Shown here piece by piece: positions 4,723 to 24,736 of a DNA stretch of 64,000 nucleotides. Under the pieces are notes generated by a model. That model searched no databases. It was given only the letters and a program-made list of their open reading frames with translations, and was not told where the DNA came from. The stretch is from Halomicroarcula saliterrae. Lineage in GTDB: Archaea; Halobacteriota; Halobacteria; Halobacteriales; Haloarculaceae. Numbering within the stretch: the stretch's first letter is position 1; each line of letters starts with the position of its first letter. The translations under genes were made by a program, and so were the position numbers. The stretch is from the NCBI RefSeq assembly GCF_031624395.1, contig NZ_JAMQON010000001.1:744001-808000 (forward strand). The letters run 5' to 3'.

Positions 4723-4934
4723 ACCAGTCTCTCCAAATCCGAAGCCTAAAACATTATTGAATCAGGGAGGTGTGGCGCCCCCGTCCCCTGTGGTCGTTCA
4801 TGATAGAACCCCTTTCTGAACGTGTCGAGCTGTTGGAATCATCGGCCGGTCGTGACCGTGTGACAGAGTCGCTCGGACGGCTCGCGAGCGCGCTTCGACC
4901 CACATTGAAACGGCGGGGCGCCGTAGTCGGACCT

Positions 4935-5735
4935 ATGCCCGACGCGTACCACGACGGCGTCCGCCTGTCCTACGAGGTATCGGGGCCAAGCGACGCCGAG
5001 ACCGTCGTCTTCGTCGAGGGACTGGGCTACGGCCGATGGATGTGGCGCTGGCAGCGCTCCGCACTGGCCGACTACGAGACGATTCTGTGGGACAACCGCG
5101 GGACCGGTGACTCCGACGAACCAGCGGGCCCCTACACTGTCCCGGCGATGGCGGACGACCTCGCGGCCGTGCTCGACGACGCCGGGGTGGACACCGCCCA
5201 CGTCGTCGGGGCCAGCATGGGCGGGATGATAGCCCAGCAGTTCGCAGTGGACCACGAGCGGGCCGATTCGCTGACGCTCCTCTGTACCACGCCGGGCGGC
5301 CCCGACGCGGTCCCGACGCCGGAGGCGACTCTCGACCGCATCTTCGACGTGCCCGAAGCGTACGACGAGCGCGAGCGACGCCGCTACAAGATGGAGCCGG
5401 CGATGACCGACGCGTTCCGGAGCGACCACGAGGAGCTCATCGAGCGTATCGTCGACTGGCGCCTCGATAGCGACGCCAGCGAGCAGGCCCTCGCCTGGCA
5501 GGCCGCCGCGGTCGACGCGTTCGACGTCCACGACCGCATCGACGAGATTCGGGTGCCCACACTGGTAGTACACGGCACCGCGGACCGGGTCGTCCCCGTC
5601 GAGAACGGCCGGTTGCTCGCCGACGAACTCCCGGACGCCGAGTACCACGAACTCGACGGCGCACCACACCTCCTGTTCATCGAGCGGGCCGACGCGGTCA
5701 ACGAGTACCTCCGGGGGTTCCTGACCGATGTCTGA
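4935..5735 (+). CDS. Alpha/beta-fold hydrolase
   Basis: Protein of 266 residues with the alpha/beta hydrolase pattern: oxyanion-side strand with DNRGTGDSD, nucleophile elbow GASMGG (GxSxG), acid in the HGTADRVVP strand, and catalytic histidine in GAPHLLFIE. I use the ATG at 4935 (MPDAYHDGVRLSYEV), which begins at the expected first strand; upstream in-frame starts add about 55 residues without family character. The last codons overlap the downstream acyl-CoA ligase by 8 bp, so the two are translated together. Substrate unknown; an ester or thioester linked to the acyl-CoA ligase is plausible. Confidence 0.85.
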   Translation: MPDAYHDGVRLSYEVSGPSDAETVVFVEGLGYGRWMWRWQRSALADYETILWDNRGTGDSDEPAGPYTVPAMADDLAAVLDDAGVDTAHVVGASMGGMIAQQFAVDHERADSLTLLCTTPGGPDAVPTPEATLDRIFDVPEAYDERERRRYKMEPAMTDAFRSDHEELIERIVDWRLDSDASEQALAWQAAAVDAFDVHDRIDEIRVPTLVVHGTADRVVPVENGRLLADELPDAEYHELDGAPHLLFIERADAVNEYLRGFLTDV

Positions 5736-7287
5736 GTTCGTGTCGGGCCCGCAGGCGTGGGTGGGCGCGTGGAGCGAGAAACGGGCCGAGCTATCGCCCG
5801 ACCGCGTGGGGCTGGTCGACGCGTCGACGGGTCGCCGGTTCAGCTACGCCGACCTCGACGAGCGGGCGAACCGGACGGCTCGACTGCTCCGCGCCCGCGG
5901 CGTCGACCGCGAGGACCGGGTGGCCGTCGTCTCGCGGACCCGCCCCGAAGTCGTCGACCTCTTCCTCGCGACGGCCAAGACCGGCAGCGTCCTCGCTCCG
6001 CTGTCCCACCGGCTGGCCCCGCCGGAACTGGCCGCCCTGCTCGGACGGGTCGACCCGGCGCTGCTGGTGGTCGAGGCCCCGTTTCTCGAAGGGACGCGGA
6101 CGGCGCTCGACGAGGCCGAGGGCGTCGAGACGACGGTCGTCGCGGTCGAGGCGGCGGACGACGAGGCGTCGCCGGCCGCAGACACACCGACCTACGTGGA
6201 GACGGTGCCCACCGACGACGGTCCTGTCGAGACGCCCCCGCTCTCGCCCGACGACACTCACCTCCTCCTGCACACCGGCGGGTCGACCGGGACGCCCAAG
6301 GAGACGGTCATCAGCCACCGTGCGGTCGTCTGGAACTCGCTGAACACCATCGCCTCGTGGGGGCTTCGACCCGACGACGTGACGCCGCTTACCTTCCCCA
6401 CCTTCCACACCGGCGGGTGGAACGTCGTTACGGTCCCCGTCTGGCACATTGGCGGCACCGTGGTCATCGCCCGGGAGTTCGACCCGGGGCAACTACTGGC
6501 GACGGTCGAGCGCGAGGGGGCGTCCGTGCTCGTGGCGGTGCCGGCCGTCCTCCGGATGCTGACCGACCACGACGACTGGGCCGAGACGGACCTCTCGACG
6601 CTCCGCGTCGTCAAATCCGGCGGCGGCCCCTGTCGCGACGCCGTCATGGCGGCGTGGTGGGACCGCGGCGTCGACCTCTCCCAGGGGTACGGCCTCACCG
6701 AGTGCGGGCCGAACAACTTCGCGATGCCGGACGGGTGGCCCCGCGAGAAGGCCGCGACGGTGGGCAAGCCCGCGATGCACGTCGACGCTCGCGTCGTGGC
6801 GGACGGCGAGCCGGTCGAGCCGGGGGCCGTCGGCGAACTCCAGCTCCGCTCGCCCCACGCCGCGGCCGGCTACCTCGACGACGCGGCCGAGAGCGAGGCC
6901 GCGTTCGGGTCGGGCTGGGTCGCGACGGGCGACCTCGCCAGCGTCGACGCGGACGGCTACTACACCATCGAAGGGCGGAAGAAGGACATGTTCGTCAGCG
7001 GGGGCGAGAACGTCTATCCGTCGGAGGTCGAAGCGGTCCTGGCCGAACACGACGCTGTCGACGAGGTAGTCGTCGTCCCCGTGCCGGACGACCAGTGGGG
7101 CGAGGTCGGCAAAGCGGTCCTCGAAGGCGACGAGTCGCTGACGCTCGCGGACGTCGAGTCGTTCTGTGACGGCCGGCTCGCCCCCTACAAGGTCCCGAAA
7201 CACATCGCGTTCGTCGAGTCGATGCCGACGAGCGGCCCGGAGAAGATCGACCGACAGGCGGTCGCCGACCGGTTCGGCGAGCGTTAA
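5728..7287 (+). CDS. Acyl-CoA synthetase / AMP-dependent ligase
   Basis: Protein of 519 residues of the ANL superfamily, which activates a carboxylic acid to the acyl-adenylate and then the CoA thioester. Motifs in order are the phosphate-binding loop HTGGSTGTPKE, the adenine-binding YGLTECGPNN, TGDLASVDADGYYTIEGRKKDM, and a C-terminal lysine near KIDRQ. It overlaps the hydrolase upstream and ends convergently with the GH13 gene, the two stop codons overlapping. Medium- or long-chain fatty acid is the likely substrate class, but sequence alone does not fix it. Confidence 0.88.
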   Translation: MSEFVSGPQAWVGAWSEKRAELSPDRVGLVDASTGRRFSYADLDERANRTARLLRARGVDREDRVAVVSRTRPEVVDLFLATAKTGSVLAPLSHRLAPPELAALLGRVDPALLVVEAPFLEGTRTALDEAEGVETTVVAVEAADDEASPAADTPTYVETVPTDDGPVETPPLSPDDTHLLLHTGGSTGTPKETVISHRAVVWNSLNTIASWGLRPDDVTPLTFPTFHTGGWNVVTVPVWHIGGTVVIAREFDPGQLLATVEREGASVLVAVPAVLRMLTDHDDWAETDLSTLRVVKSGGGPCRDAVMAAWWDRGVDLSQGYGLTECGPNNFAMPDGWPREKAATVGKPAMHVDARVVADGEPVEPGAVGELQLRSPHAAAGYLDDAAESEAAFGSGWVATGDLASVDADGYYTIEGRKKDMFVSGGENVYPSEVEAVLAEHDAVDEVVVVPVPDDQWGEVGKAVLEGDESLTLADVESFCDGRLAPYKVPKHIAFVESMPTSGPEKIDRQAVADRFGER

Positions 7288-9665: not shown

Positions 9666-9737
9666 GGTAAATCAGACCCCGGTATCGGTTGTCTCGTACC
9701 GTCGCGACACTGGGATAAAGAGCTTTCTCAAGAAGGT

Positions 9738-9751
9738 ACAACGGGTGTTAT
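9738..9751. promoter_or_regulatory. ACAAC-box upstream of the GH13 gene
   Basis: ACAACGGGTGTTAT matches the uspA palindrome at 11 of 14 positions. It sits about 18 bp upstream of the leftward TATA element at 9714-9719, the same architecture as the other copies. Confidence 0.45.
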
Positions 9752-9853
9752 TACTAATTCGGAAACAGTCGTCGACGCACCCGGACAGTGCCGGGGCTCT
9801 GTCCCGTACAGCGTGATAAAAGAAGCCTCGACCGGACGCGAGCGACCGTTCGT

Positions 9854-11104
9854 CTACGCCTCGTCGAACAGGGTGTCGCCCTCGACCATGTGCGCCTCGA
9901 CGGCGTCCATATCCAGCGTGAGGCCGAGACCGGGTTCTTCCGGGATCTCGATGTAGCCGTCCTCGATGACGGTCTCCTCGACCAGGTCCGACCACCAGCC
10001 CAGCTCGTAGGAGTGGTACTCGACGGCGAGGGAGTTGGGAACGGCCGCACCGACCTGCGCGCTGGCCATCGTCGCGACCGGCGAGGCGACGTTGTGCATC
10101 GCGACCGGGACGTAGTACTGGTTCGCGACGTCCGCGATTTTCCGGGTCTCGCGCATCCCGCCGACCTTCGGCAGGTCGGGTGCGATCATATCGACGGCCT
10201 GGCTCTCGATGAGTCGGCGCTCCTCGGTGGCCCGATAGCGGTTCTCGCCCACTGTGATGGGCGTCGTCGTGGATTTGGTGACTTCCTCTTGCACTTCGAG
10301 GTTCTCCGGCGGCACCGGGTCCTCCAGCCACCACACGTCGTAGTCCTCGATGGCGTCGGCGAGTCGCTTTGCCGAGCCACCGGAGAACGTCCAGTGACAG
10401 TCGAAAGCCACGTCGGCCTCGTCTTTGACTTCCTCGGTGACTTTCTCGACGATTTCGGCCTTGTGGCGGATCTCGCCCGGCCGGAGGTGGCGGTTCGCGC
10501 GGTCCTTCTCCAGCCCGCTCGGCACGTCGAGGTCGAACTTCAGCGCGTCGTAGCCCAGTTCGTCGACGACCCGTCGAGCTTCGGCCGCACAGGCGTCGGG
10601 GTCGGCCTCCTCTTCGGTGTGACAGTCACAGTAGACCCGCATCTCGTCGCGGTACTTCCCGCCCAGCAGCTGGTAGGCGGGCAGCTCCAGAATCTTGCCG
10701 GCCAGGTCGTGCAACGCGACCTCGATGCCGGCGATGGCGGTGACAGTGACGCCCTCGACGCTGCCCTCGCCGGACATCTTCTGGACGAGGTGCTCGTAGA
10801 GCCGGTCGATGTCCAGCGGGTTCTCGCCGACGACGAAGGGCTTCATCCGCTCGATGAGTTCGGGGACGCCCGCGCCCCAGTAGGCCTCGCCGGTCCCGAC
10901 GACACCGGCGTCGGTGTAGATACGCACCAGCGTCCACGGGAAGTTCCCGTCGACCATCGTCGTCTGCACGTCCGTGATTTCCACGTCCCGGCCGCCGCCT
11001 CGCTTGGCCGTGACCCCCATCGTCTCCGCTGACAGCTCTCGCATCGTGTACTCCGCGTTGGGGTCGTGCAGGTCGGCGTAGTCGATGTCGTTCGCTTGTC
11101 CCAT
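9854..11104 (-). CDS. Enolase-superfamily (mandelate racemase type) sugar-acid dehydratase
   Basis: Protein of 416 residues. The barrel carries the metal ligands of the galactonate/gluconate-dehydratase group: Asp in FDCHW (with the paired D-x-H), Glu in WLEDPVPPENLE and Glu in VGENRY; the later catalytic histidine is in HNVASPV. Such enzymes remove water from aldonic acids to give 2-keto-3-deoxy acids, the entry to the haloarchaeal semi-phosphorylated Entner-Doudoroff and pentose pathways. I choose the ATG at 11104; the earlier ATG at 11170 would overlap the histidine kinase gene and add unrelated residues. Exact sugar acid not determined. Confidence 0.85.
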   Translation of the reverse strand: MGQANDIDYADLHDPNAEYTMRELSAETMGVTAKRGGGRDVEITDVQTTMVDGNFPWTLVRIYTDAGVVGTGEAYWGAGVPELIERMKPFVVGENPLDIDRLYEHLVQKMSGEGSVEGVTVTAIAGIEVALHDLAGKILELPAYQLLGGKYRDEMRVYCDCHTEEEADPDACAAEARRVVDELGYDALKFDLDVPSGLEKDRANRHLRPGEIRHKAEIVEKVTEEVKDEADVAFDCHWTFSGGSAKRLADAIEDYDVWWLEDPVPPENLEVQEEVTKSTTTPITVGENRYRATEERRLIESQAVDMIAPDLPKVGGMRETRKIADVANQYYVPVAMHNVASPVATMASAQVGAAVPNSLAVEYHSYELGWWSDLVEETVIEDGYIEIPEEPGLGLTLDMDAVEAHMVEGDTLFDEA

Positions 11105-13980: not shown

Positions 13981-14148
13981 ATGACAGATACACCCCTCGA
14001 CATCGGCGTCCTCGGCTACCGTTTCATGCGAAACCACCTTTTTCAGCGTCGGGTTCGCGCGCTGCGCTCACCGCTCCTCGAAAAACGTGGGCGAAAAAGG
14101 CCGCTCGCGAGCCTACGGCTCGCTCGCGGTACCACGGAGGCACGATGA
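13981..14148 (+). pseudogene. Duplicated 5' fragment of the oxidoreductase gene followed by a short insert
   Basis: The first 16 codons (MTDTPLDIGVLGYRFM) copy the start of the true gene at 14145 (MTAPLDIGVLGYRFM); a 33-bp stretch is identical (13996-14028 versus 14157-14189). The frame then runs through unrelated, Arg-rich translation (RNHLFQRRVRALRS) and stops in an ATGA overlap with the real start codon. The piece between the copies looks like a non-coding intergenic repeat with a hairpin, so I read this as a broken gene start left by insertion or recombination, though a 55-residue peptide could in principle be made. Confidence 0.65.
14029..14144. repeat. Short intergenic element with hairpin between two copies of a gene start
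   Basis: This 116-bp segment separates the duplicated gene starts. It contains a perfect 7-bp stem with a 3-nt loop (14107-14123, GCGAGCC-TAC-GGCTCGC) within a larger run of self-complementary CTCGCG sequence. It ends in GGAGGCACG just before the ATG, which supplies a Shine-Dalgarno. It resembles dispersed haloarchaeal intergenic repeats as I remember them, but that identity is not checked. Confidence 0.4.
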
Positions 14149-15251
14149 CAGCACCGCTCGACATCGGCGTCCTCGGCTACCGTTTCATGGGGAAAGCACA
14201 CGCTAACGCGTTCGCCCGCCTCCCCATGTTCTTCGAGGACGCCCCCGAGCTGAACCGCGAGGTCATCGTGGGCCGCGACGAGGCCGCCCTCGACGACGCG
14301 GCCGACCGACTGGGCTTTGCCCGCACCGCGACCGACTGGCGCGACGTGGTCGACGAGGTCGACGTGTTCTACAACCTCGGTCCGAACCACGTCCACGCCG
14401 AGCCCTCCATCGCCGCGCTCGAAGCGGGCACGCCGGTGTTCTGCGAGAAGCCGCTGGCCCCGACCCTCTCCGACGCCGAGTCGATGGCCGCGGCGGCCGA
14501 GGAGGCCGGAGTCCCCGCCGGTATCGCGTTCAACTACCGGTTCGTCCCGGCAATCCAGTACGCCAAGGAGCTCATCGAGAACGGCGAACTGGGCGAGATT
14601 CACCACTTCCGCGGGCGCTATCTGCAGGACTGGCTCGTCGACCCGGAGGCGCCCTGGTCGTGGCGCAACGACGCCGAGATGGCCGGCAGCGGCGCGCTCG
14701 GCGACCTCGGCGCCCACACCATCGACCTCGCCCGGTTCCTCGTCGGCGACGTCGCCGAGGTGTCCGGCCAGCTCCGAACGTTCGTCGACGAGCGCCCCGT
14801 CGACGGCGAGGACGAGCGCTGGGCGGTCACCGTCGACGACGCCTACAGCGCACAGGTCGCCTTCGATAACGGCGTGATGGGGACGCTGGAGGCGTCGCGG
14901 TTCGCCAGCGGTCACAAGAACGACCACACCATCGAAATCGAGGGTTCGAAGGGTGGACTGCGGTTCTCGCTGGAGCGGCTGAACGAACTCGAACTCCTGC
15001 GGGAAGGCTCTCGTGGGTACGAGACCGTTCTGATGACGGACCCGGACGACCCCTACCTCGACCACTGGTGGCCGCCGGGCCATGTCATCGGCTGGGAGCA
15101 CACGTTCGTCCACGAGAACTACGAGTTTCTACGTTCAGTGTCAACAGGAAATGAGTACCACCCTGACTTTGGCGATGGGCTAGCCGTCCAGCGCGTTCTT
15201 GACGCAATCCAGCGAAGTGATGAACAAGGAGAGCGGATTAGTGTTGACTAG
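14145..15251 (+). CDS. Gfo/Idh/MocA oxidoreductase, with 3' end supplied by an integrated element
   Basis: Protein of 368 residues with an N-terminal Rossmann fold (GVLGYRFMGKAHANAF) and the family's EKPLA motif (CEKPLAPTLSDAE), followed by the C-terminal dehydrogenase domain (GSGALGDLGAHTIDL). It should oxidise or reduce a sugar or inositol with NAD(P), working with the isomerase upstream. Its start at 14145 has GGAGG just before it. The last ~43 codons, from 15119 on, are AT-richer and come from the element inserted here; the native tail is stranded at 23438-23567. The hybrid tail keeps the family's VQRVLDA motif and ends SVD, so the enzyme is probably still functional. Confidence 0.9.
   Translation: MTAPLDIGVLGYRFMGKAHANAFARLPMFFEDAPELNREVIVGRDEAALDDAADRLGFARTATDWRDVVDEVDVFYNLGPNHVHAEPSIAALEAGTPVFCEKPLAPTLSDAESMAAAAEEAGVPAGIAFNYRFVPAIQYAKELIENGELGEIHHFRGRYLQDWLVDPEAPWSWRNDAEMAGSGALGDLGAHTIDLARFLVGDVAEVSGQLRTFVDERPVDGEDERWAVTVDDAYSAQVAFDNGVMGTLEASRFASGHKNDHTIEIEGSKGGLRFSLERLNELELLREGSRGYETVLMTDPDDPYLDHWWPPGHVIGWEHTFVHENYEFLRSVSTGNEYHPDFGDGLAVQRVLDAIQRSDEQGERISVD
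15119..15127. other. Left attachment site core
   Basis: CTACGAGTT, identical to 23438-23446. On its left the sequence is host-like and GC-rich; on its right it becomes AT-rich while keeping the reading frame of the oxidoreductase. Confidence 0.6.
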
Positions 15252-15304
15252 GGATTAAATCCATCTACCGCGAGCAAATCTACAAGTTCGGCGTCTGAAA
15301 TCTG

Positions 15305-15475
15305 CTACCCGTTGTTTTCTTGTGCTTCAGCCATCTGTCTCAAATGTTCTTGTTCCTGTTCTTTCGCCTTCTCTTTCTGTCTCGCCTTCCACCAAAACAC
15401 CGCACCAAGCGGGATTCCGATGACTGTCAGACAGCACAACGCCGCTAATATTCTTAATCCGGTAGCATATGCCAT
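15305..15475 (-). CDS. Small single-span membrane protein of the element
   Basis: Protein of 56 residues beginning MAYATGLRIL: one hydrophobic helix (ILAALCCLTVIGIPLGAVFWW) followed by a charged tail rich in Lys, Glu and Gln. I prefer this ATG to one 21 codons upstream, whose extra cysteine-rich residues would run across an inverted repeat. It diverges from the lipoprotein gene. No family recognised. Confidence 0.5.
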   Translation of the reverse strand: MAYATGLRILAALCCLTVIGIPLGAVFWWKARQKEKAKEQEQEHLRQMAEAQENNG

Positions 15476-15513
15476 GTCATGACAACATGATTTGTCAATG
15501 AAAAAGCTGCCGC

Positions 15514-15553
15514 TTAACCAACAGTCACACCAACACATCCGATTGTTGGTTAA
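15514..15553. repeat. Inverted repeat between divergent genes of the element
   Basis: Perfect 10-bp arms TTAACCAACA (15514-15523) and TGTTGGTTAA (15544-15553) with a 20-nt spacer. It lies in the divergent promoter region of the small membrane protein and the lipoprotein, so an operator shared by both is likely; a hairpin is the alternative. Confidence 0.5.
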
Positions 15554-15590
15554 TACGAAAAATCTATACTACTTGAAATATTGTTAAAAT

Positions 15591-16142
15591 ATGATGATTA
15601 CTAGAAAATCACTGATTACACTCTGTGTTGGGCTTATGCTAGTCGTCGCTGGCTGTTCGGCTTCGTCTCCCAATAGTGGCACTCCCTCTAATACAGAACA
15701 ATCCTCCGCCACTGATACACCTTCTAACACAGAACAGCCCTCCGCCAGTAGCAATTTCATCACATACAGATATCAAAATGGGAGCCTCACACATACTGTG
15801 AGAGTCTATCCCGGAAATGACACCTATGATACTATACTTGAGAGCAATCTGGAGCCTCCGTATGGCAACTTTAGCACCAATATCACTCTCGGGATACTCT
15901 GTGAAGGGAATGAACAACTGGTATACAACCGGACTGGTAGCCAAAATGGGGTTACTGATAACGCGAGTACCTACATGAGAACCGATGAATCGGGCGGAAC
16001 AAGTACCGTTCAGGGTGTTCCAAATCGCATTTACAATACTTACACACCGCGAAGGGTAGAAGCGGCTGTTTATACAGAGAACGGAACCACAGTTCTTGAA
16101 AGCTGTACTGTTGACGGGAAAGGCTCATGGGAATTTGATTAG
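15591..16142 (+). CDS. Element-encoded lipoprotein
   Basis: Protein of 183 residues with an N-terminal signal (MMITRKSLITLCVGLMLVV) ending in the lipobox VAGC, so it is probably lipid-anchored outside the cell membrane. A Ser/Thr/Pro-rich linker with a repeated SNTEQ(S/P)SA unit follows, then a beta-rich domain with two cysteines and several N-x-S/T sites. No homologue recognised. A surface protein of a mobile element could act in exclusion or contact between cells, but that is only a guess. Confidence 0.7.
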   Translation: MMITRKSLITLCVGLMLVVAGCSASSPNSGTPSNTEQSSATDTPSNTEQPSASSNFITYRYQNGSLTHTVRVYPGNDTYDTILESNLEPPYGNFSTNITLGILCEGNEQLVYNRTGSQNGVTDNASTYMRTDESGGTSTVQGVPNRIYNTYTPRRVEAAVYTENGTTVLESCTVDGKGSWEFD

Positions 16143-16164
16143 TTCTTTTCTCTCCAAAATCAAT

Positions 16165-16386
16165 TCACTCCTCAGACAGTTCCCACACTGTATTAATCAA
16201 ATCGGGCGGAATGTGAAACGTTCTGTCGTCCTCTTCGCACCGATACAGGTCTTCAGACGTATCAACACACTCCCAATCATGACTTAGCAACCCAGCCACA
16301 GTATCGATTACAGGATACTCGCCTGAGTCAGCCTGTTCCATCGATTCAACTTTCTGCGCAATCTCGCGTTTACTCTTCCGGGTCAT
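16165..16386 (-). CDS. Small protein with MTRKSKREI N terminus, copy A
   Basis: Protein of 73 residues, acidic overall, with a basic start MTRKSKREIAQKVESMEQ that repeats in the gene directly upstream. Two cysteines lie in the middle (WECVD, YRCEED). It is the last gene of a leftward operon; its start overlaps the previous gene by 17 bp, implying translational coupling. Function unknown. Confidence 0.6.
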   Translation of the reverse strand: MTRKSKREIAQKVESMEQADSGEYPVIDTVAGLLSHDWECVDTSEDLYRCEEDDRTFHIPPDLINTVWELSEE

Positions 16387-16552
16387 TGTCAGGTTGTAAG
16401 GCTTCGGCCCATGCGTCGCCTAATTCGTCGTTTGACGGGTCCGCGTATTCGTCTGAAAAATACTGTTCTATCGGCCCAACGTTGTCAGGAACGTCTGTCT
16501 GTTCAATCTCATTCAGTGTGGTCTCAATCTCTCGCTTAGATTTCCGTGTCAT
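16370..16552 (-). CDS. Small protein with MTRKSKREI N terminus, copy B
   Basis: Protein of 60 residues whose first nine residues equal those of the next gene, while the codons differ and the remainder (DVPDNVGPIEQYFSDE) diverges. Probably an old tandem duplication. Very acidic C terminus. It overlaps the upstream gene by 4 bp and the downstream one by 17 bp. Confidence 0.58.
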   Translation of the reverse strand: MTRKSKREIETTLNEIEQTDVPDNVGPIEQYFSDEYADPSNDELGDAWAEALQPDNDPEE

Positions 16553-16806
16553 TCTGATTCAAGTTCATCAAGCCGCTGGGATAGTTCCTCAAGGTCCCTG
16601 TCGTTCTGCATTTGCCGATGCACGTTCGCTGCATAGGCTAACGCGCGTATCCACTTGATTCGGACCTTCTCATTCTCAGGGTCGTACACTCGCCCCTCTT
16701 CGACTTTCCTGTGAGCCTCGCGGATTCCGTCCTCTAGCAGCTCAAGAATCTCGTCACGATTCGGTAATTCCCGCGCGGGCGCACTCGCTGTCTCGGCGTC
16801 AGACAT
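16549..16806 (-). CDS. Small coiled-coil protein of the element
   Basis: Protein of 85 residues from the ATG at 16806 (MSDAETASAP). The sequence is largely helical and charged, ending in a heptad-like stretch (RDLEELSQRLDELESE). It heads a three-gene leftward operon with overlapping starts. No family recognised. Confidence 0.58.
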   Translation of the reverse strand: MSDAETASAPARELPNRDEILELLEDGIREAHRKVEEGRVYDPENEKVRIKWIRALAYAANVHRQMQNDRDLEELSQRLDELESE

Positions 16807-17042
16807 GGCTACCACCGGGGGGTGCAACCCGAAAACTGGCGTTAGAAGGGTTTTGAGAGCGATACATCACGTTCGGAAGCGTAATTGGGAGTTGCTTAGT
16901 CACGGTTACATCACCGTTGTAGTCCCGGCCAAAACACCGCTACCGGGATACGAAAATGAAACTGCAACCGAAGACTCAGAGGAGACAATTACCTCGCCGG
17001 TGTCTAATCCGGGTCATTGGCAGTTTGATTACTGGCCTTCTC

Positions 17043-17552
17043 TTACAGGGACAGCTCCTCGCTCTTGCGAAGATAGTTCACAAACTCTTCCTGACGGCCA
17101 ATACCCCCAAGCGACCGGAGGTATCCCGCCTCATCGTCGTGGCCTTCGCTTAGGAGAGTTTCGTACATTTTCACCGCTTTCATGCGCTTGTCGTTGTTCG
17201 GACTGTCAGTAGCAGGGTCGAACCCTTCAGTTGGGTCAAGCGTCTGACTTCCGAAGTCACCTTGTTTCGCAGCAAAGGCCTCACACACTGCACTCCCTGC
17301 GAAGTCAAACTGTTCTGACTGTGCTTTCTGTACGGCCTTCGCACTCGGCGCTTTCTCTGCGAACTGCCGGCGGCTGCTACTGTCCACAATATACTTCGCG
17401 CTATCTGGCCGGTCTACCTCAATCACACCGCCTCGCTTGTCGTCGTGGGGTTCAATTTCGTGTTGCTCGCCAGTTACCGGGTCCTCGATGTGGCCGGCAC
17501 TCGTCTTAGTTTCAATTCGATACGTCTGTTCGTTGTCTAGAATTGCACTCAT
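17043..17552 (-). CDS. Unknown element protein, 169 residues
   Basis: Acidic protein without membrane spans or recognised motif. The N-terminal half looks like a small beta domain (TYRIETKTSAGHIEDPVTGE) and the C-terminal half is helical (MYETLLSEGHDDEAGYLRSL). It reads leftward, as do most genes of the element. The 215 bp between its stop and the next gene hold no well-supported gene. Confidence 0.6.
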   Translation of the reverse strand: MSAILDNEQTYRIETKTSAGHIEDPVTGEQHEIEPHDDKRGGVIEVDRPDSAKYIVDSSSRRQFAEKAPSAKAVQKAQSEQFDFAGSAVCEAFAAKQGDFGSQTLDPTEGFDPATDSPNNDKRMKAVKMYETLLSEGHDDEAGYLRSLGGIGRQEEFVNYLRKSEELSL

Positions 17553-17643
17553 AGCTATGAAGTGTCTCTGTGGTCGGATTCCGCCGACCGTCCGTTACGC
17601 TCCTACCAAGTTGCTCGCCGTCTCCGGGTCATCGCCCACACTG

Positions 17644-17826
17644 CTACTCGGCTGTTCTGTCCGTTCTATAGCCGTCGACCACTGCCGGAACCGTATGCAC
17701 CGACCCAATCACCAACACGGACAAGGAACCGTCTGCATGGCCCGACAGAACCAACACTGCGATAATCACCGACACAAGAATCGACTCAGATACGACCCAT
17801 CGACAAAACTCTTTCAGTGAAATCAT
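17644..17826 (-). CDS. Small membrane protein of the element
   Basis: Protein of 60 residues with one or two hydrophobic helices (ILVSVIIAVLVLSG and LSVLVIGSVHTVPAVV) and short polar ends. It lies between the primase gene and the 169-residue protein, on the same strand. No family recognised; short length keeps confidence modest. Confidence 0.45.
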   Translation of the reverse strand: MISLKEFCRWVVSESILVSVIIAVLVLSGHADGSLSVLVIGSVHTVPAVVDGYRTDRTAE

Positions 17827-17900
17827 GCTGATTTCTCAAGTCATGCTCGCCCATACTGGGGTCATCGCACCAAATGACGGCAATAGCCTCCTACTGTTCC

Positions 17901-17994
17901 AAGTGTTCCATGTATTTTCCAATGTGGCTATTATTCACAGACGGTCTATTCTTTCTGTAAATAGCTACCACTCTGGCGATAAGGTGGAACACTT
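17901..17994. repeat. Inverted repeat beside the primase gene, possible origin or terminator
   Basis: Arms AAGTGTTCCA (17901-17910) and TGGAACACTT (17985-17994) flank an AT-rich stretch. The left arm is preceded by a partial direct copy of TGTTCCA. The site is in a gene-free gap of 174 bp just downstream of the primase-helicase gene. Confidence 0.35.
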
Positions 17995-18000
17995 AGAACG

Positions 18001-20577
18001 CTACTTGAAAGAGTCAATGCCAGCGTTCCGGCTGGAATTTTCTTGTGGGTCGGACCCACCGGGCGCGTCGTCTGTAAGAACGAATCCGTTGTAGCCATAC
18101 CGGAGTGTTCCATCAATCCGGCGTCGGGTCTTGCTCACACCGTCACGACGCTTTAGCTCAGACGTGAATTTGCTATCAGTTTCCACCTCTAAGCCGTTCT
18201 GTCGGGCATAGGCCACGTATGAGTCATACGCACCAAGAGCCTCACCCGTGGATTCCTTCGGTGTGAATCCATCTGGTTCCTCTTCGGTGCAACGGTCGAA
18301 CCATTGGGAGATACTATTCCCGTACCGTTCCCATTTCTCCCGGTTCTGATACGGGAGTGGTTCGTTCGTAAACCGACCTTGCTCCTCTAATCGCTGGTAG
18401 CCTTCAATCGCCCAGTTCAGGATTCCGGGTAGCTCTTCGAGGAGTTGTTCATCAAGGTCGTCAATCTGTTCATCGTTCGGTATCGCTTGCGGGAATACCA
18501 CAGTCAGCCAGCGGTTCCAGAACGCCTCATCATCGACACTCCGGTTCGGGGCGCGGTTGGCCGCGAAGATATGTTTCGCCGTGGGCTTGAACTGGAACAC
18601 TGGCTTTCGCTTCCGTTCCGCATCAAGACTGTCACCGGCGATTAGCTCTTTCACCTTCCCTGTGTTCTCAATTGAACCTTCGCCCAAGTCGCTCCGAGTA
18701 TTCAGGGCCGTGTTGACCAACCGGGCCGGTCCCCATCGCTCATTGGCGAGATATTGGACGCTTGTGCTACTCGTCGCCGCACTATCTTCCCCACCGAATA
18801 GGGCTTCTATCACGTCAACAAAGACGGATTTACCGGCGTCGGTCGGCCCCAATAGCATTAGCGCCTTCTTGCGTTTCACGTCCCAATGCCGAAGGCAATA
18901 GCCGATGTACTCTTGGAGTAGGGGAATGTCGCTTGCTTCGACCACTTCCCCAAGAAACTCCCGCCACTTCGGACAGTCAGCAGTGGGGTCATGTTCCGTT
19001 GCTAGTGTCCATCGGATATGGTCGGACGGTTGTATCTCCCGCGTAATCTCACCGGCGTCTAGGTCAATCAAGCCATTCTCTGCCGCAATCTGCCCGGGTG
19101 GACCACCGCCGAACCGTTGCTCTTTGACTTGGCTCCTCGCTTGGAGTTGGTCCATTACTTCCCGCCGAATGTGGCCGGAGTAGTACGGCCCCAGATACTC
19201 GTCTAGCCATTTCCGAATCTCGCCGTCACCATTGAGATTCCATACCCCATCATCACACCATAGCCATATCTCCCGCTTCGGAAGATAGGCGATTCGGTGG
19301 GTGGGCAACTCGGCTAGAGCTGTGTTTTTGATTTCGCGGGTAGACAGTGGCTCAAGGTGCGCGTATGCATCTTCTTTACCGGCTTCGACCGTCCAACCGT
19401 CCCCGGCGTCGTCTAGGAACTGTCCACCGGCGTCAATTTCACCAATTGCCCGAATAGCCTCATGCCCACAGGCTTCGAGGATATTACTGGGGTTCTGGAA
19501 CACGTCGGCTAGTTCACCCGCCGGGTAGCTTTCAACTGGTTGGACAGTGACGGTCTTATCCGACTTGTCGAACCAACTGCTATCAATGGCTTCAACTAAC
19601 GGTTTTGTAGGTGTGTTCTGTCGGGTTCCACCCTTGGGGTTAGACCGATTAGGAACGTCCCAACCAGCTTCTTTAGCGGAATGAACCAGTGTCCCCACAG
19701 TTACACCGTCGCCTTCGCTTGCGGTCGACCAGATGGCCTCAATATTCCGCATCGCTTGAGTATCCCACTTACTCCCGCCCTTCGACCACTGCTCGAAGAG
19801 CCGCTTTCCGCTTGGACCACTATCCCAGTCATGGACCGCGAAGCCAAGTTTCAGCCAGTGGTCATATCCACAGTCGGGTTTGATATGGCTTAGTGCATCC
19901 TCAATATCAGATTCATCAAGCCATTCGTCGCCGTCGTAATCAACACTCTCGGCGTCACCGCTCGGGGAGAGACTAGGCGCTTCGCCGTTTATCTCCTGAT
20001 ATGCGTCAAACAGGAATTGCGTGGGGTCGGCTTCCGTTGCGCTGTCGCCAGATACCGATAGCTGATTCCCGGTAAAGGCACAGAACTTGTTTGTGAGAAC
20101 ATCAACCCCTTCATGTTCTCCAAGTTGACAGTCGGCCCACCACTCCGGTATCTCATGCCCGACAAAGGGAATGTGCAACCCTTCACCGCTGGCACTATAC
20201 TCAATGTATGCCCCACTGTCAGTGAATTTCTGAATCTCTGGAAGCCAGTCTTTCGGCTTCTCTTGGTGGGCTTCTCTCAGACACCCATCAAGGTCTAAGC
20301 AGCCGTATAGACCGCGCGGGTAATCATCATTCTCCAAGGCCATTACATAGCCAATGCCCCAACTCTCGCGTTCCTTGGCGGCTTCAATAGCCTCCTCGAA
20401 GGTGTGCCAGTCGTCTGGGTCGGACCAACTAATTCCAAAGTCACCGTTCCAGTGTGGACGGCGCGGAGTGTCGGCTGATTCGTCCCACATGAGCCACTGT
20501 GGCCGGTCTTGCAACTCTTCGGGGATTGAATCATATTCTCCATCAAGGTCGTCAGAAACCGTCTGTGTTCGGCTCAT
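18001..20577 (-). CDS. Primase-helicase, phage/plasmid P4 type
   Basis: Protein of 858 residues. The N-terminal ~200 residues resemble the archaeo-eukaryotic primase fold of mobile elements (CLDLDGCL acidic motif, GLHIPF region), followed by a PriCT-like helical segment (DALSHIKPDCGYDHWLKLGF). The C-terminal half has a D5-N-like region and an SF3 helicase domain with Walker A LLGPTDAGKS (about residue 575) and sensor-1 Asn in HIFAANRAP. It should start and unwind DNA for replication of the element. It is the last gene of a leftward operon whose upstream genes overlap it or one another. Confidence 0.88.
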   Translation of the reverse strand: MSRTQTVSDDLDGEYDSIPEELQDRPQWLMWDESADTPRRPHWNGDFGISWSDPDDWHTFEEAIEAAKERESWGIGYVMALENDDYPRGLYGCLDLDGCLREAHQEKPKDWLPEIQKFTDSGAYIEYSASGEGLHIPFVGHEIPEWWADCQLGEHEGVDVLTNKFCAFTGNQLSVSGDSATEADPTQFLFDAYQEINGEAPSLSPSGDAESVDYDGDEWLDESDIEDALSHIKPDCGYDHWLKLGFAVHDWDSGPSGKRLFEQWSKGGSKWDTQAMRNIEAIWSTASEGDGVTVGTLVHSAKEAGWDVPNRSNPKGGTRQNTPTKPLVEAIDSSWFDKSDKTVTVQPVESYPAGELADVFQNPSNILEACGHEAIRAIGEIDAGGQFLDDAGDGWTVEAGKEDAYAHLEPLSTREIKNTALAELPTHRIAYLPKREIWLWCDDGVWNLNGDGEIRKWLDEYLGPYYSGHIRREVMDQLQARSQVKEQRFGGGPPGQIAAENGLIDLDAGEITREIQPSDHIRWTLATEHDPTADCPKWREFLGEVVEASDIPLLQEYIGYCLRHWDVKRKKALMLLGPTDAGKSVFVDVIEALFGGEDSAATSSTSVQYLANERWGPARLVNTALNTRSDLGEGSIENTGKVKELIAGDSLDAERKRKPVFQFKPTAKHIFAANRAPNRSVDDEAFWNRWLTVVFPQAIPNDEQIDDLDEQLLEELPGILNWAIEGYQRLEEQGRFTNEPLPYQNREKWERYGNSISQWFDRCTEEEPDGFTPKESTGEALGAYDSYVAYARQNGLEVETDSKFTSELKRRDGVSKTRRRIDGTLRYGYNGFVLTDDAPGGSDPQENSSRNAGIDSFK

Positions 20578-20750
20578 TAGCTACTCACCCGAAAATACGC
20601 TTTCCGGTGGGTCCGGCAGAGATTCACACCGTTTACCTCAGTCACGGCTTTGTGCCAGCAGGTATCACAGAACGGACCGGTGTTGTTAACTTTCTCCGGT
20701 GTGTTGTTAACAACAGACGGCCCCAGACCGTCTTTCTCCCATCCCTTCAT
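20577..20750 (-). CDS. 57-residue zinc-finger-like protein upstream of the primase
   Basis: The reading frame begins MKGWEKDGLG and ends AYFRVSS. It has C-D-T-C and a later C-R-T-H group (FCDTCWHK, LCRTHRK), so a small zinc-binding fold is likely. Its stop codon shares one base with the primase start (TAATG), and its own start overlaps the previous gene's stop. This tight coupling and element-like codon use support a real gene despite its length. A duplicated VNNT motif is present in the N-terminal half. Confidence 0.6.
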   Translation of the reverse strand: MKGWEKDGLGPSVVNNTPEKVNNTGPFCDTCWHKAVTEVNGVNLCRTHRKAYFRVSS

Positions 20751-20884
20751 TCGTTGACAACCTCCAGCAGAGCTTCGGCCACAGGTGCCACAGGAAGGTC
20801 GGAGTTGGCCGCCCGTTCAATTTCCTCGCGCCGGTTTTCTATCTTAGCGATACCACTATCTTTCGTAGTTTGTGTAACAGCCAT
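20747..20884 (-). CDS. 45-residue protein in the primase operon
   Basis: Begins MAVTQTTKDSGIAKIENR and ends LLEVVNE; charged and helical. It overlaps the zinc-finger-like gene by 4 bp (ATGA arrangement). No family recognised; supported mainly by the overlap with its neighbour. Confidence 0.45.
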   Translation of the reverse strand: MAVTQTTKDSGIAKIENRREEIERAANSDLPVAPVAEALLEVVNE

Positions 20885-20929
20885 ATTAGTAACAATATCA
20901 GCAGTCGGATTCCGCCCGATAGACCGCCG

Positions 20930-21049
20930 TCACTCGTCAAGAAGCCGGGTAATCACACTATCATATGTGTCGTTCGGCCCCTCTTTTTGTTCAAATAACT
21001 TTTCGCGCGTCTCTGGTCGGATGGCGATTTGTGCTTCGCTCTTTGACAT
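20930..21049 (-). CDS. 39-residue ribbon-helix-helix-like protein
   Basis: Begins MSKSEAQIAIRPETREKLFE and ends DSVITRLLDE. The pattern of a short beta strand with Ile-Arg, two helices and a Thr-Tyr-Asp turn (GPNDTYDSVITRL) is that of small antitoxin-like or CopG/DUF7557-type proteins. I start it at 21049 because the longer in-frame version adds unrelated residues. As first gene of the replication operon it may regulate copy number or be an orphan antitoxin; no toxin is adjacent. Confidence 0.6.
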   Translation of the reverse strand: MSKSEAQIAIRPETREKLFEQKEGPNDTYDSVITRLLDE

Positions 21050-21357
21050 AATCTGAAATCTTCTGGCTCGCTGGTTTTGTGTCGATACACCATTGCGACC
21101 TGTGGACACCTTCGACTGTTCGCCTCGGGTCCCCACCTACCACCTACTCCCGTTTCGCCGGTGGCTCATTTCGCAAAACGCGGCTACGTTTTGACCTTCG
21201 CCTCCACCCTGTTTGGCTTCACTGGCTAACCGCGATAGCTTATATCAGATTCCATCTTGACGGCGGACCGCAGGGGTGGAATCCTCACAATCTTCTGTTT
21301 GTTCGGTACTTTATTAGGCATGGCTGTACTACACAGTGTGTAGTCAAACACTTCACA
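21050..21357. other. Divergent intergenic region inside the element
   Basis: These 308 bp separate the leftward replication operon from a rightward gene. The right end holds a TTTATTA TATA element (21310-21316) and the 17-bp palindrome. The remainder is GC-richer than the rest of the element and shows no supported gene. An origin or an RNA could lie here, but nothing specific is visible. Confidence 0.4.
21328..21344. promoter_or_regulatory. 17-bp palindromic operator
   Basis: ACTACACAGTGTGTAGT is a perfect palindrome around a central G. It lies 11 bp after the TATA element and ends 13 bp before the ATG at 21358, so it covers the expected transcription start. A bound protein would block the promoter; autoregulation by the gene it precedes, or control by the ribbon-helix-helix protein, is likely. 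Confidence 0.6.
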
Positions 21358-22005
21358 ATGTCCGAAGACTCAAATTCAGAACGTAGTCGTGCGATGCTCG
21401 CCCCGCAAGACCGGAATTATCTACGAGGAGTGTCGGAATATCTTGATGGACTTAGCAGGAAAGCCAAGTACAATCGCCGGGTTGCAATCATTGAGCGGGT
21501 TACTGGCGCTGTTGAGGATTTCAAAACGACTCACCGCGAAATGAGTGAAAAGATATGGTCTAACCTCATTGATTTGGAACGTGAAGAAGAACGCCGGTTC
21601 AAAAATGGCATGATAGCAACAATCGCTTTCTTCTATGAATACTGTGAGACGAAAGGGTGGGATTTTGAATATATCCTTGAGCGTGGTGTCGAAGAGGCGT
21701 ACTGCTATGGGACCAAGCGAGATATGCCACGACGAACTGTTGATGATGTCCGATTTGAAGTTGATGCGTCCGAGGCGGATGTAACCAGAGATGCACAATC
21801 CCGGATTGAAGAAAAAATTGAGCGTGGTGATAAATTGACTCTTCAAGAGAAGGGCATTGTCTACGAAATGGGTGGGACCCTTTTGGAAAAGTTTGAAGCC
21901 GCCAAATCAGATAGGGACCGCCGTCATAGCCTGCAAAAGCGTGAGCAAGAGGCTCTTAAACGGGTTAACAAAGACCTTGAAATGCACGGCGAGCCAGACG
22001 AATAG
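21358..22005 (+). CDS. Unknown element protein, helical, 215 residues
   Basis: Begins MSEDSNSERSRAMLAPQDRNYLRGV, a start pattern (R-x-M-L-x-P-x-D-R-x-Y-L-x-G) that I remember from haloarchaeal mobile-element proteins of unknown function. The rest is highly charged and helical (RVAIIERVTGAVEDFKTT; EEERRFKNGMIATIAFFY) with no catalytic motif. It is the only long rightward gene between the primase operon and the integrase. Its promoter has a strong palindrome, so tight control is likely; a regulator of integration or replication is plausible but unproven. Confidence 0.65.
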   Translation: MSEDSNSERSRAMLAPQDRNYLRGVSEYLDGLSRKAKYNRRVAIIERVTGAVEDFKTTHREMSEKIWSNLIDLEREEERRFKNGMIATIAFFYEYCETKGWDFEYILERGVEEAYCYGTKRDMPRRTVDDVRFEVDASEADVTRDAQSRIEEKIERGDKLTLQEKGIVYEMGGTLLEKFEAAKSDRDRRHSLQKREQEALKRVNKDLEMHGEPDE

Positions 22006-22054
22006 ACTGATATTGTATTACTAGATTCTGGCTTTAGCCAGCGAAGTAACGTCT

Positions 22055-23389
22055 CTATTTATCCAACCTATCGGCCACTCTGTCAGCCACCTTATCGACC
22101 ACCTCATCATTCTCAAGCAACTTATCTAACACGTCAGGGTTATCAAGCGCCTCATCAACCGCCTGCACCGCTTCGACCTGTTCCGGGTTGGTTGGGTCAA
22201 CTTGTTTGTACGATTCTCTCACACTGTCCTCCATGTCCTCTCGAAGCCCCTCAGCGTCAGGGGAGTAGACCGTCCCACAACTAGGGCAGGCTTTGGCCGA
22301 CCCGGGGAGTGGTTCATCACAGGTATGGCAGGTCGGCGGAGTAAACGCCGATTCCTCTTCAACCTCATACCCCACCTTGGCTTCGACGTTCCGCGCCACT
22401 TCGGTATCAGACAGATGCGAATACGTTGTTTCCATCACACGGGAATCCGGCCCGTGGCCGATAAGGTGCTTAATCTCGGAATCTTCAAGCTCGTAATCAC
22501 GCTTACAGGTGGTTACGAAAAAGTGCCGGAAAGCGTGGGGGTTCACGTCTTTGTCCACGCCAGCAGTATCAGCGATGCGAGATAGCCGAACGTGGATTGA
22601 TGAACGGTCTAGGGAGTCACCCGGTGTAAGTCCACCCGGGGCCGTAGCAGTCGGGAGAGACGTTAGTAGATAGTCGTCAGGCTCGCCGGTTGGGTGCGCT
22701 CGAAGCCACTCCCGAACAGCCTTCTGAGCGCCAAGAAGTGGGCGCGTCGTCGCCGTCTTATCAGCGCCCTTCAACCCTTCCACGCTATCGTTTAGTTGGT
22801 AACTGCCCGATGCGCCAGCGTCAGGGTCTACGTCTTTCACACGTAGCGTTTGGATAGCGCGGATACGCTGGCCCGTGTAGGCCAGCAGGTCGACAAGACA
22901 CCTATCACGGTCGTTAGAACAGGCATCACGTAGCGCGTTCACGTCGTCGCCCGTGAGAACAGTATCAGGGTCTAATGAAGAGCTTGTATCGACGTTCACA
23001 AGCACTATCCCCTCGGTATCAGCAGCAGCGTCAGAGTGATAGCGTAGGAATTTCAGCAGGGCGCTTTGTCGTTGTTTCACCGTCTGGCCGGACAAGTCGT
23101 CGCTCCACTTGTCGAAAATCTCATTGAACCTGTCGGTTGGGGTATCAAGCAACGGGTCGTCAATTTCCTTAGCTAACAACCGAAGGGCGCGGCCATACGA
23201 GGTTAGTGATGAAACGGCGAGCGTCTGCTGTTCGCCGTCAACCACATGGTTCGTAGTGTGGTCCTCCGCATCTAAGGCCCGCAATAGTTCTTTAACAGGG
23301 CGAGCGTTCGGTTCGCCCATGTTATCAAGACGTTCGTGTTCACGTCGATACCGGGCGCGGGGGTCGTCAGATTTCACCATACATACCAA
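22055..23389 (-). CDS. Tyrosine-type site-specific integrase with C-terminal zinc ribbon
   Basis: Protein of 444 residues. An N-terminal SAM-like core-binding domain (about 30-125) precedes the catalytic domain with Arg175 (TGQRIRAI), His285-x-x-Arg288 (HAFRHFF), His312 (LIGHGPDS) and nucleophile Tyr323 (TTYSHLS). A zinc ribbon (CHTCDEPLPGSAKACPSCG, about 365-385) and an acidic helical tail follow. The gene starts 49 bp from the right att core and reads inward, the usual place for an integrase. It should catalyse integration and excision between the CTACGAGTT cores. Confidence 0.93.
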   Translation of the reverse strand: MVCMVKSDDPRARYRREHERLDNMGEPNARPVKELLRALDAEDHTTNHVVDGEQQTLAVSSLTSYGRALRLLAKEIDDPLLDTPTDRFNEIFDKWSDDLSGQTVKQRQSALLKFLRYHSDAAADTEGIVLVNVDTSSSLDPDTVLTGDDVNALRDACSNDRDRCLVDLLAYTGQRIRAIQTLRVKDVDPDAGASGSYQLNDSVEGLKGADKTATTRPLLGAQKAVREWLRAHPTGEPDDYLLTSLPTATAPGGLTPGDSLDRSSIHVRLSRIADTAGVDKDVNPHAFRHFFVTTCKRDYELEDSEIKHLIGHGPDSRVMETTYSHLSDTEVARNVEAKVGYEVEEESAFTPPTCHTCDEPLPGSAKACPSCGTVYSPDAEGLREDMEDSVRESYKQVDPTNPEQVEAVQAVDEALDNPDVLDKLLENDEVVDKVADRVADRLDK

Positions 23390-23437
23390 TGCATCACCAA
23401 GTCCCTTGTATTTTTTCGTTAACGGTGTTCTGCATAT

Positions 23438-23446
23438 CTACGAGTT
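23438..23446. other. Right attachment site core
   Basis: CTACGAGTT, the partner of 15119-15127. Immediately left is AT-rich element sequence; immediately right the GC-rich host sequence resumes in the frame of the oxidoreductase tail. Confidence 0.6.
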
Positions 23447-23567
23447 CCTCTCGGCCGTCGCCGGCGACGGGAGCTACGAGCCGAACTTCGCGGACGGGCT
23501 CGCGGTCCAGCGCGTCCTCGATGCCGTCGAACGCAGCGACGAGCGCGGCGAGCGCGTGTCGCTGTAG
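23438..23567 (+). pseudogene. Stranded native 3' end of the Gfo/Idh/MocA gene
   Basis: Translation reads YEFLSAVAGDG, then YEPNFADGLAVQRVLDAVERS and stops at 23565-23567. It aligns with the element-supplied tail at 15119-15251 (about 27 of 42 residues equal, the centre being DGLAVQRVLDA in both). It has host base composition and no start of its own, so it is the original end of the interrupted gene. Confidence 0.85.
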
Positions 23568-23629: not shown

Positions 23630-24736
23630 ATGTCACTCACTGCTCGACTGGACGCGTATCTCGCGAGTAACGACCTCGACGCGGTGTGGTTCGCCCGCCC
23701 CGGGAGCTTCGCCTGGCTGACGGGCGGCGTCGATGCCAGCGGTGCCGAGTCCGGCGACAACGTCGTCGACCGGGGCGGCGATATCGGCGTCGCGGCCGCG
23801 GGCTACGACGGGGACGGGGTGACAGTCGTCACCGACAACATCGAGGCGCCGCGGCTGCGCGACGAGGAGCTCGCCGACGGCGTCGATATCGAGACGTTCC
23901 CCTGGTACGACGGGTCGCTCGCCGCGACCGTCGCGGCCGTGAGCCCGTCGCCCGCCGCGGCTGATTTCGACGTTCCCGGGCTCGATTCGCTCGACGCCAC
24001 GCCGCTCCGGCAGCCGCTGACCGACCGACAGCAGACGCGGTATCGGGACTTCGCGACCGGTGTCGCCGAGGCGGTGGAGACGGTCGCCCGCCGGGCCCAC
24101 AGCACGGACCGCGAACGTGAGGTCGCCGCGGAGTTGCGCGGGGAGCTGGCGGCTATCGACGCCAGCGCGCCGGTCGTCCTCGTCGGCGGCAGCGAGCGCG
24201 CTCAGCGGTACCGCCACTACACGCCGAAAGCAGCACCGCTGGACGAGTACGCCCTGCTGTCGGTGACGGCCGAACGCGACGGGCTCTACACCAGCTGTAC
24301 CCGGACGGTCGCGTTCGACGCGCCGGAGTGGCTCCGCGAGCGGACCCGCGCCGCGATGCGCGTGGAGGCGACGGCGCTGGCCGCGACGCGAGCGGTCGGT
24401 GCCGACAGTGGCACCGCCGGCGACGTGTTCGACGCGATTCAGCGGGCCTACGACGCCGTCGGCTGGGACGGCGAGTGGCAGAACCACCATCAGGGCGGTG
24501 CCGCGGGCTACGCCGGTCGCGAGTGGATTGCGACCCCGGAGAGCGACGCTCCGGTCGCGGTGCCCCAGGGGTACGCCTGGAATCCCACGGTCCGGGGCGC
24601 AAAGAGCGAGGACACCCAGCTGGTGACTGAAGACGATATCACGCTGCTTTCGGGGACGGGCGAGTGGCCGACGGAGACGGTAGCGGCCGTCGGGTACGAC
24701 TGTTCGATGGAGCGCCACAGCGTCCTCGACCGCTGA
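23630..24736 (+). CDS. M24-family (Xaa-Pro peptidase-like) protein lacking metal ligands
   Basis: Protein of 368 residues with the creatinase-like N-terminal domain and the pita-bread C-terminal fold of M24 peptidases. Compared with active prolidase/aminopeptidase P, the first Asp ligand region reads VTAERDG, the second reads SCTRT instead of SDxTRT, and the fourth reads AWNPTVRG instead of an IEPG-type Glu. The His (HHQGG) and last Glu (KSEDTQLVTED) remain. Three of five ligands are therefore missing, and peptidase activity is doubtful. It follows the native oxidoreductase tail by 62 bp and would originally have been in the same cluster as the sugar isomerase. Confidence 0.8.
   Translation: MSLTARLDAYLASNDLDAVWFARPGSFAWLTGGVDASGAESGDNVVDRGGDIGVAAAGYDGDGVTVVTDNIEAPRLRDEELADGVDIETFPWYDGSLAATVAAVSPSPAAADFDVPGLDSLDATPLRQPLTDRQQTRYRDFATGVAEAVETVARRAHSTDREREVAAELRGELAAIDASAPVVLVGGSERAQRYRHYTPKAAPLDEYALLSVTAERDGLYTSCTRTVAFDAPEWLRERTRAAMRVEATALAATRAVGADSGTAGDVFDAIQRAYDAVGWDGEWQNHHQGGAAGYAGREWIATPESDAPVAVPQGYAWNPTVRGAKSEDTQLVTEDDITLLSGTGEWPTETVAAVGYDCSMERHSVLDR

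Follow-up and report, generated by a model that had tools for sequence, protein, structure and literature searches.

We have analyzed a 64,000-nucleotide stretch of the haloarchaeon Halomicroarcula saliterrae (contig NZ_JAMQON010000001.1, positions 744,001 to 808,000; the window), in which an element of 8.3 kb interrupts a gene encoding an oxidoreductase of the Gfo/Idh/MocA family. The element lies at positions 15119-23437. It is richer in AT than its surroundings, with a GC content that is mostly 44-57% between the terminal repeats compared to 60-74% outside. The repeats are direct and match exactly, with the core CTACGAGTT at attL (15119-15127) and again at attR (23438-23446). No tRNA gene is present at the attachment site (att), nor anywhere else in the window.

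The oxidoreductase gene runs from 14145 to 15251 on the forward strand, and is a hybrid. Its N-terminal part, up to approximately 15127, is that of the host, and it continues in frame into a diverged C-terminal tail borne by the element (15128-15251, forward strand, encoding LRSVSTGNEYHPDFGDGLAVQRVLDAIQRSDEQGERISVD and a stop codon). The open reading frame (ORF) is complete across attL, and the insertion leaves the gene open. Its product has Pfam matches to PF01408, PF02894 and PF22725, and is 82-87% identical to the closer congeneric orthologs. The native 3' end of the gene is found directly after attR, where it is stranded (23447-23567, forward strand). It is followed by a neighbor (23630-24736, forward strand) that lies directly 3' of the uninterrupted gene in several congeners.

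The empty site and the replacement tail

If the flanks are joined at the repeat, the protein ends in EFLSAVAGDGSYEPNFADGLAVQRVLDAVERSDERGERVSL, an ortholog-like C-terminus as found in congeneric genomes. The uninterrupted gene is present in these genomes, and in several of them the upstream gene, the oxidoreductase and the downstream gene are contiguous. Among the orthologs the repeat core is well conserved, and so is the Tyr-Glu-Phe that it encodes. All of the 28 orthologous ends that we compared are closer to the native tail than to that of the element, with mean amino acid identities of 0.77 and 0.58 respectively. We regard both the junctions and the empty site as established by these comparisons. 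An earlier note on this DNA had proposed that an integrative element lies inside a protein-coding gene and replaces the 3' end of that gene, with the native end stranded at the right. The exact repeats, the joining of the flanks and the uninterrupted orthologs bear out the first part, and the in-frame homologous tail together with the native stub after attR bear out the second. The same note had suggested a search for an empty site in relatives, which has been found, and took an orthologous end resembling the 15119-15251 version more than the native one as a result that would tell against it; none of the 28 is of this kind. No intact element was found at the oxidoreductase gene in the other genomes searched of the host family. 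Two partial matches there are degraded copies, and were discarded as candidates: a tail-only match in one genome (G107) is a decayed remnant, and another (G050) has a degraded copy, each being without a related integrase.

One side observation concerns the other end of the gene. A stretch of 43 bp at 13991-14033 nearly duplicates (93%) the beginning of the oxidoreductase gene at 14152-14194, from which it lies 161 bp upstream with other sequence between. It may be a scar left at the 5' end by a separate event.

The tails at the left and right ends of the element align in frame, with 61-64% amino acid and 55-58% nucleotide identity, and chance would by no means account for their similarity (E = 2e-15 in a local tblastx comparison). 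The proportion of differences at synonymous sites (pS) is 0.89, i.e. these sites are saturated, and that at nonsynonymous sites (pN) is 0.27-0.30. The GC content at third codon positions (GC3) is about 0.4 in the element tail versus 0.95 in the native tail. Saturation of the synonymous sites combined with conservation of the protein indicates that the element-borne tail has been kept as coding sequence. The high pS and the contrast in GC3 indicate moreover that it is an old, separately evolving copy and not a recent duplicate of the host tail.

The same gene is occupied in two genomes of Halorubrum. The closest relatives were found using an alignment-based integrase scan; single-sequence pattern scans of the genome and viral contigs found nothing. 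The closest integrase, 59% identical over its full length, is that of Halorubrum sp. Hd13, where it is inserted in the ortholog of the oxidoreductase gene. In locus L179 of this genome the native stub is at 9698-9516, the integrase at 9702-11030 and the hybrid gene at 12271-11108, and this element is integrase-only, with a length of about 1.5 kb. The layout is the same in Halorubrum sp. Boch-26, except that the integrase is truncated. Other elements with a similar tail, which the earlier note had recommended looking for, are thus found at the same gene, and its repeated use is clear from the two layouts. The element tails contain RSVSTGN in the window and Hd13, and RAVSTGN in Boch-26; at this position the host tails read SAVA or SAAA. 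With the shared R(S/A)VSTGN the element tails look like a lineage of their own.

These data bear on three other explanations of the tail. It might be a passively captured gene fragment, in which case the host gene would have become a pseudogene on insertion, and the element tail does differ from the native one at more than one third of its residues. Yet its frame, length and stop codon are all preserved, saturation of the synonymous sites goes along with a conserved protein (in this case as in every other native/element comparison made below), and a motif is common to the element tails of three genomes and absent from the hosts. We consider passive capture to be extremely unlikely. Alternatively the tail could be conserved only as an arm of the att site bound by the integrase, and not for the protein that it encodes. 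The window and Hd13 elements closely resemble each other in the 30 bp or so that follow the core, which is what a binding arm would lead one to expect, but the rest of the tail diverges mostly at synonymous sites. Moreover, in the DUF309 and TYW1 genes discussed below, the conserved part spans the whole gene, or the head that bears the start codon. Conservation as a binding arm alone is thus very unlikely. Lastly, insertion might switch the gene off until excision occurs, to the benefit of host or element. Such regulated gene integrity is known for some integrases, those that lack a replacement sequence (PMC10111431). Here the element supplies a replacement end and the gene remains open, so that this explanation is barely credible. 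The tail is therefore best regarded as a replacement 3' end under selection for its coding sequence.

Targets of the integrase family

We examined 40 relatives of the integrase (approximately 35-49% identity) from the host family and order, together with their surroundings. Homologous gene ends are found on both sides of the integrase in 21 of these, for two of them across two contigs. It is the 3' tail that is replaced in a gene of the carboxymuconolactone-decarboxylase family (one locus), a gene of the glutathione-S-transferase family resembling glutathionyl-hydroquinone reductase (two), MsrA (one), and the large subunit DP2 of DNA polymerase PolD (seven), where the last codons are exchanged. 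In TYW1 (three loci) it is the 5' head, for which the element provides a new start codon and N-terminal part. The whole gene is replaced in DUF309 (six loci) and in an unknown gene (one); both native stubs remain, and a complete copy is carried on the element. A further two relatives have a stub only.

The DUF309 loci and that of the unknown gene might instead be read as an invertible switch that flips an N-terminal part between two C-termini, since the two copies of the C-terminus are inverted relative to each other. However, the far end holds a native N-terminal stub, and its orientation is that of the native C-terminal stub. The co-orientation of the native stubs indicates that the complete element-borne gene replaced the interrupted one. 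The switch was rejected once the native N-terminal stubs had been found, and we give it a probability close to nil.

In all 12 native/element comparisons, drawn from eleven loci, pN is lower than pS (ratio 0.05-0.63), and across the same comparisons GC3 is lower in the element copy. When the 11 target labels are mapped on a tree of 42 integrases, 10 changes are required, which is the minimum, and the hosts come from different families. That the number of label changes is minimal despite the varied hosts indicates that each integrase clade has retained its target in passing from host to host. The position of the window integrase on this tree has moderate support (85/98). The match of clade to target is evident in the tree, and the related haloarchaeal integrases target at least eight protein-coding genes, with one integrase clade for each. 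Where the target can be read, each clade uses a single protein-coding gene, mostly carrying the matching 3' end, 5' end or whole gene.

An integrase of the same family (38.6% identity) is encoded by an isolated virus, Halorubrum tailed virus 27 (HRTV-27). Beside it and on the opposite strand is a short gene, gp035 (3285-3539 of locus L140), annotated as a hypothetical protein. This corresponds to the C-terminal end of peptidase family M3 (positions 388-456 of 457 in PF01432), with up to 58% identity to the C-termini of haloarchaeal PepF. Such an arrangement is expected of an attP with a replacement 3' end, and pepF is the predicted integration site. The passages of the virus paper that report integrases in its family do not mention the PepF-like tail (PMC8651126). 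As a separate observation, another genome (G218) has two PepF C-terminal ends 1.8 kb apart (4787-5017 and 6575-6802 of locus L147), one of them in a short frame. No related integrase lies between or near these two ends, and the duplication is possibly a similar event due to another integrase.

Some members of the family are small. A DP2 locus of Halapricum hydrolyticum, the MsrA locus, three of the DUF309 loci and the Hd13 element comprise only about 1.5-2.5 kb, with hardly more than the integrase plus the replacement end or gene. They may be minimal mobile units or deletion remnants. Halapricum hydrolyticum has three integrases of the family, for which two targets were identified, the 5' end of TYW1 and the 3' end of DP2.

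The DP2 tails differ from their native counterparts at one conserved position. All seven element-borne tails have Pro or Ala in place of a conserved Gln, which is kept in all seven stranded native tails, and in all four unoccupied genomes checked. DP2 C-termini were compared at L156, L157, L159, L161, L162, L163 and L165, together with the stubs on the integrase side. The Gln belongs to a PCNA-binding-like motif at the C-terminus of DP2 (NKQSGIADFM or NKQGSIADFM). It could be imagined that the exchanged ends alter host functions by swapping the C- or N-termini of proteins, rather than effecting a neutral repair, although we think this unlikely.

In the mechanism that we propose, the tyrosine recombinase would join the host attB, near codon 325 of the Gfo/Idh/MocA gene, with an attP carrying a diverged, selected copy of the oxidoreductase 3' end. 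Integration would splice the element tail onto the host N-terminal part, and strand the native tail beyond the integrase. With the tail spliced in this way the gene should still encode a full-length protein, and the replacement ends probably spare the host on integration. We infer that this integrase performed the integration, that the hybrid enzyme is functional, and that the element may still be capable of excision. Overall we are confident that a plasmid-like element entered the gene by site-specific recombination using an attP with a replacement 3' end, and that the clades of its family each target one gene.

Some points weigh against this. Thirteen of the 40 relatives are without an identified target, and another four are located next to the start of rpa or sdhA, where the stretches read showed no copied end. 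The crossover core in Hd13 is less exact than the 9 bp of the window. Excision, recombination by the integrase and activity of the hybrid enzyme stand as predictions from sequence, and the AlphaFold model of the hybrid protein is too weak to use (mean predicted local distance difference test score 62.9).

Two of the four integrases just mentioned lie just upstream of a replication-protein-A-like gene (rpa), close to its start codon, and could possibly represent a 5'-flank variant without a copied coding end. The other two are beside sdhA, near the start of the gene. DP2, rpa, sdhA and the hydroquinone reductase were named by reading the sequences rather than by a dedicated family search, while the identities of TYW1, MsrA, DUF309 and the decarboxylase- and transferase-family genes were confirmed with Pfam.

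Gene content of the element

The integrase is a tyrosine recombinase of 441 amino acids (22055-23380, reverse strand; PF00589, E 4e-15; PHROG integrase, 1.4e-22) that starts about 60 bp from attR. It has a C-terminal zinc ribbon, with a weak match to DZR/zinc ribbon families and cysteines that are invariant in the alignment of the integrase family. The ORF is complete between the att sites, as in the classical type II, pNOB8-like archaeal integrases. Both att cores are external to the integrase gene, and the latter is not split as it is in the suicidal type I, SSV-like integrases.

A primase-helicase of 858 amino acids (18001-20577, reverse strand) has family matches to PriCT_2, D5_N and DUF5906, and its best phage match is to a Halorubrum tailed virus (38% over 94%). 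The 215 amino acid ORF at 21358-22005 (forward) and that of 169 amino acids at 17043-17552 (reverse) have no family match. Two small ORFs of 85 and 73 amino acids (16549-16806 and 16165-16386, both reverse) have homologs in one element of Halobellus captivus, the former beside a related integrase and primase. A 183 amino acid ORF (15591-16142, forward) has a lipoprotein-like N-terminus and a weak match to DUF7537 below the cut-off. The last, of 77 amino acids (15305-15538, reverse), is membrane-like by eye with no firm family. Family searches identified no virion genes in the element, save for a marginal 'tail' PHROG match of the 85 amino acid ORF (E 0.0015), and it is therefore best described as a plasmid-like integrative element. 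PADLOC gave no match to a defence system.

Comparison with known systems

The earlier note had anticipated a new attachment strategy, which is not supported. Sites in archaeal coding genes have been published (PMC6563490, PMC8371274), with 14 of 68 thaumarchaeal elements lying in the 3' ends of protein-coding genes (PMC6563490). That the attP of gene-targeting integrases usually carries a replacement for the target gene is a stated rule, for bacteria and icd (PMC10111431). The described haloarchaeal cases that we found mostly use tRNA genes (PMC7230728, PMC7911831). In a coverage of the literature that was incomplete, we came across no archaeal element described as replacing a gene end by a homologous copy, and no archaeal integrase family reported to have as many coding targets as this one, though some published proviruses (PMC8651126) may already have such sites on record. 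The mechanism is thus known in kind, and the apparent novelty lies in the archaeal family and how broad it is, together with the replacement of 5' ends and whole genes.

A single haloarchaeal integrase family has thus repeatedly adopted protein-coding genes as attachment sites, apparently including essential ones such as that of DP2. Damage would be avoided through the gene ends, heads or whole genes that are carried, which evolve separately and are under selection. The family supplies natural attB/attP pairs of differing specificity, ready for use, and allows co-evolution between integrase specificity and the gene fragment carried to be tested directly. Gene-end copies provide a way to find element boundaries missed by tRNA-based searches. 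They also carry a warning for annotation, as scars of integration may show up as C-termini that differ between strains or as small ORFs downstream.

The Escherichia coli elements e14 and phage 21 have tails that are highly similar to the native end of icd. Like the element described here they integrate in a protein-coding gene and bring a homologous 3' end (PMC10111431), but they are bacterial, whereas here the host is archaeal, the tail is strongly diverged, and the integrase belongs to a family with many targets that also replaces 5' ends or whole genes. Helper-embedded phage-inducible chromosomal islands are similar in that one integrase clade repeatedly uses protein-coding genes, but these islands lack a replacement sequence and disrupt the gene (PMC10111431). 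The thaumarchaeal NitEve-E2 is an archaeal element inserted in the 3' part of a protein-coding gene with the ORF reconstituted; there 8 nt including the stop codon are replaced by non-homologous sequence (PMC6563490), in contrast to some 40 homologous codons here. Halorubrum virus BJ1 is haloarchaeal and uses a protein-coding gene, with its att in that for HMG-CoA reductase, but no replacement end is described in the review (PMC8371274), and BJ1 was not among the phage matches of the window integrase. The HF1-group haloviruses and pleolipovirus proviruses are haloarchaeal with the integrase next to attP, whereas their described members use tRNA genes (PMC7230728, PMC7911831). HRTV-27 has an integrase of the same family directly beside the tail of a host gene. 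It differs in its target gene and in being a full tailed virus, known here from its free form.

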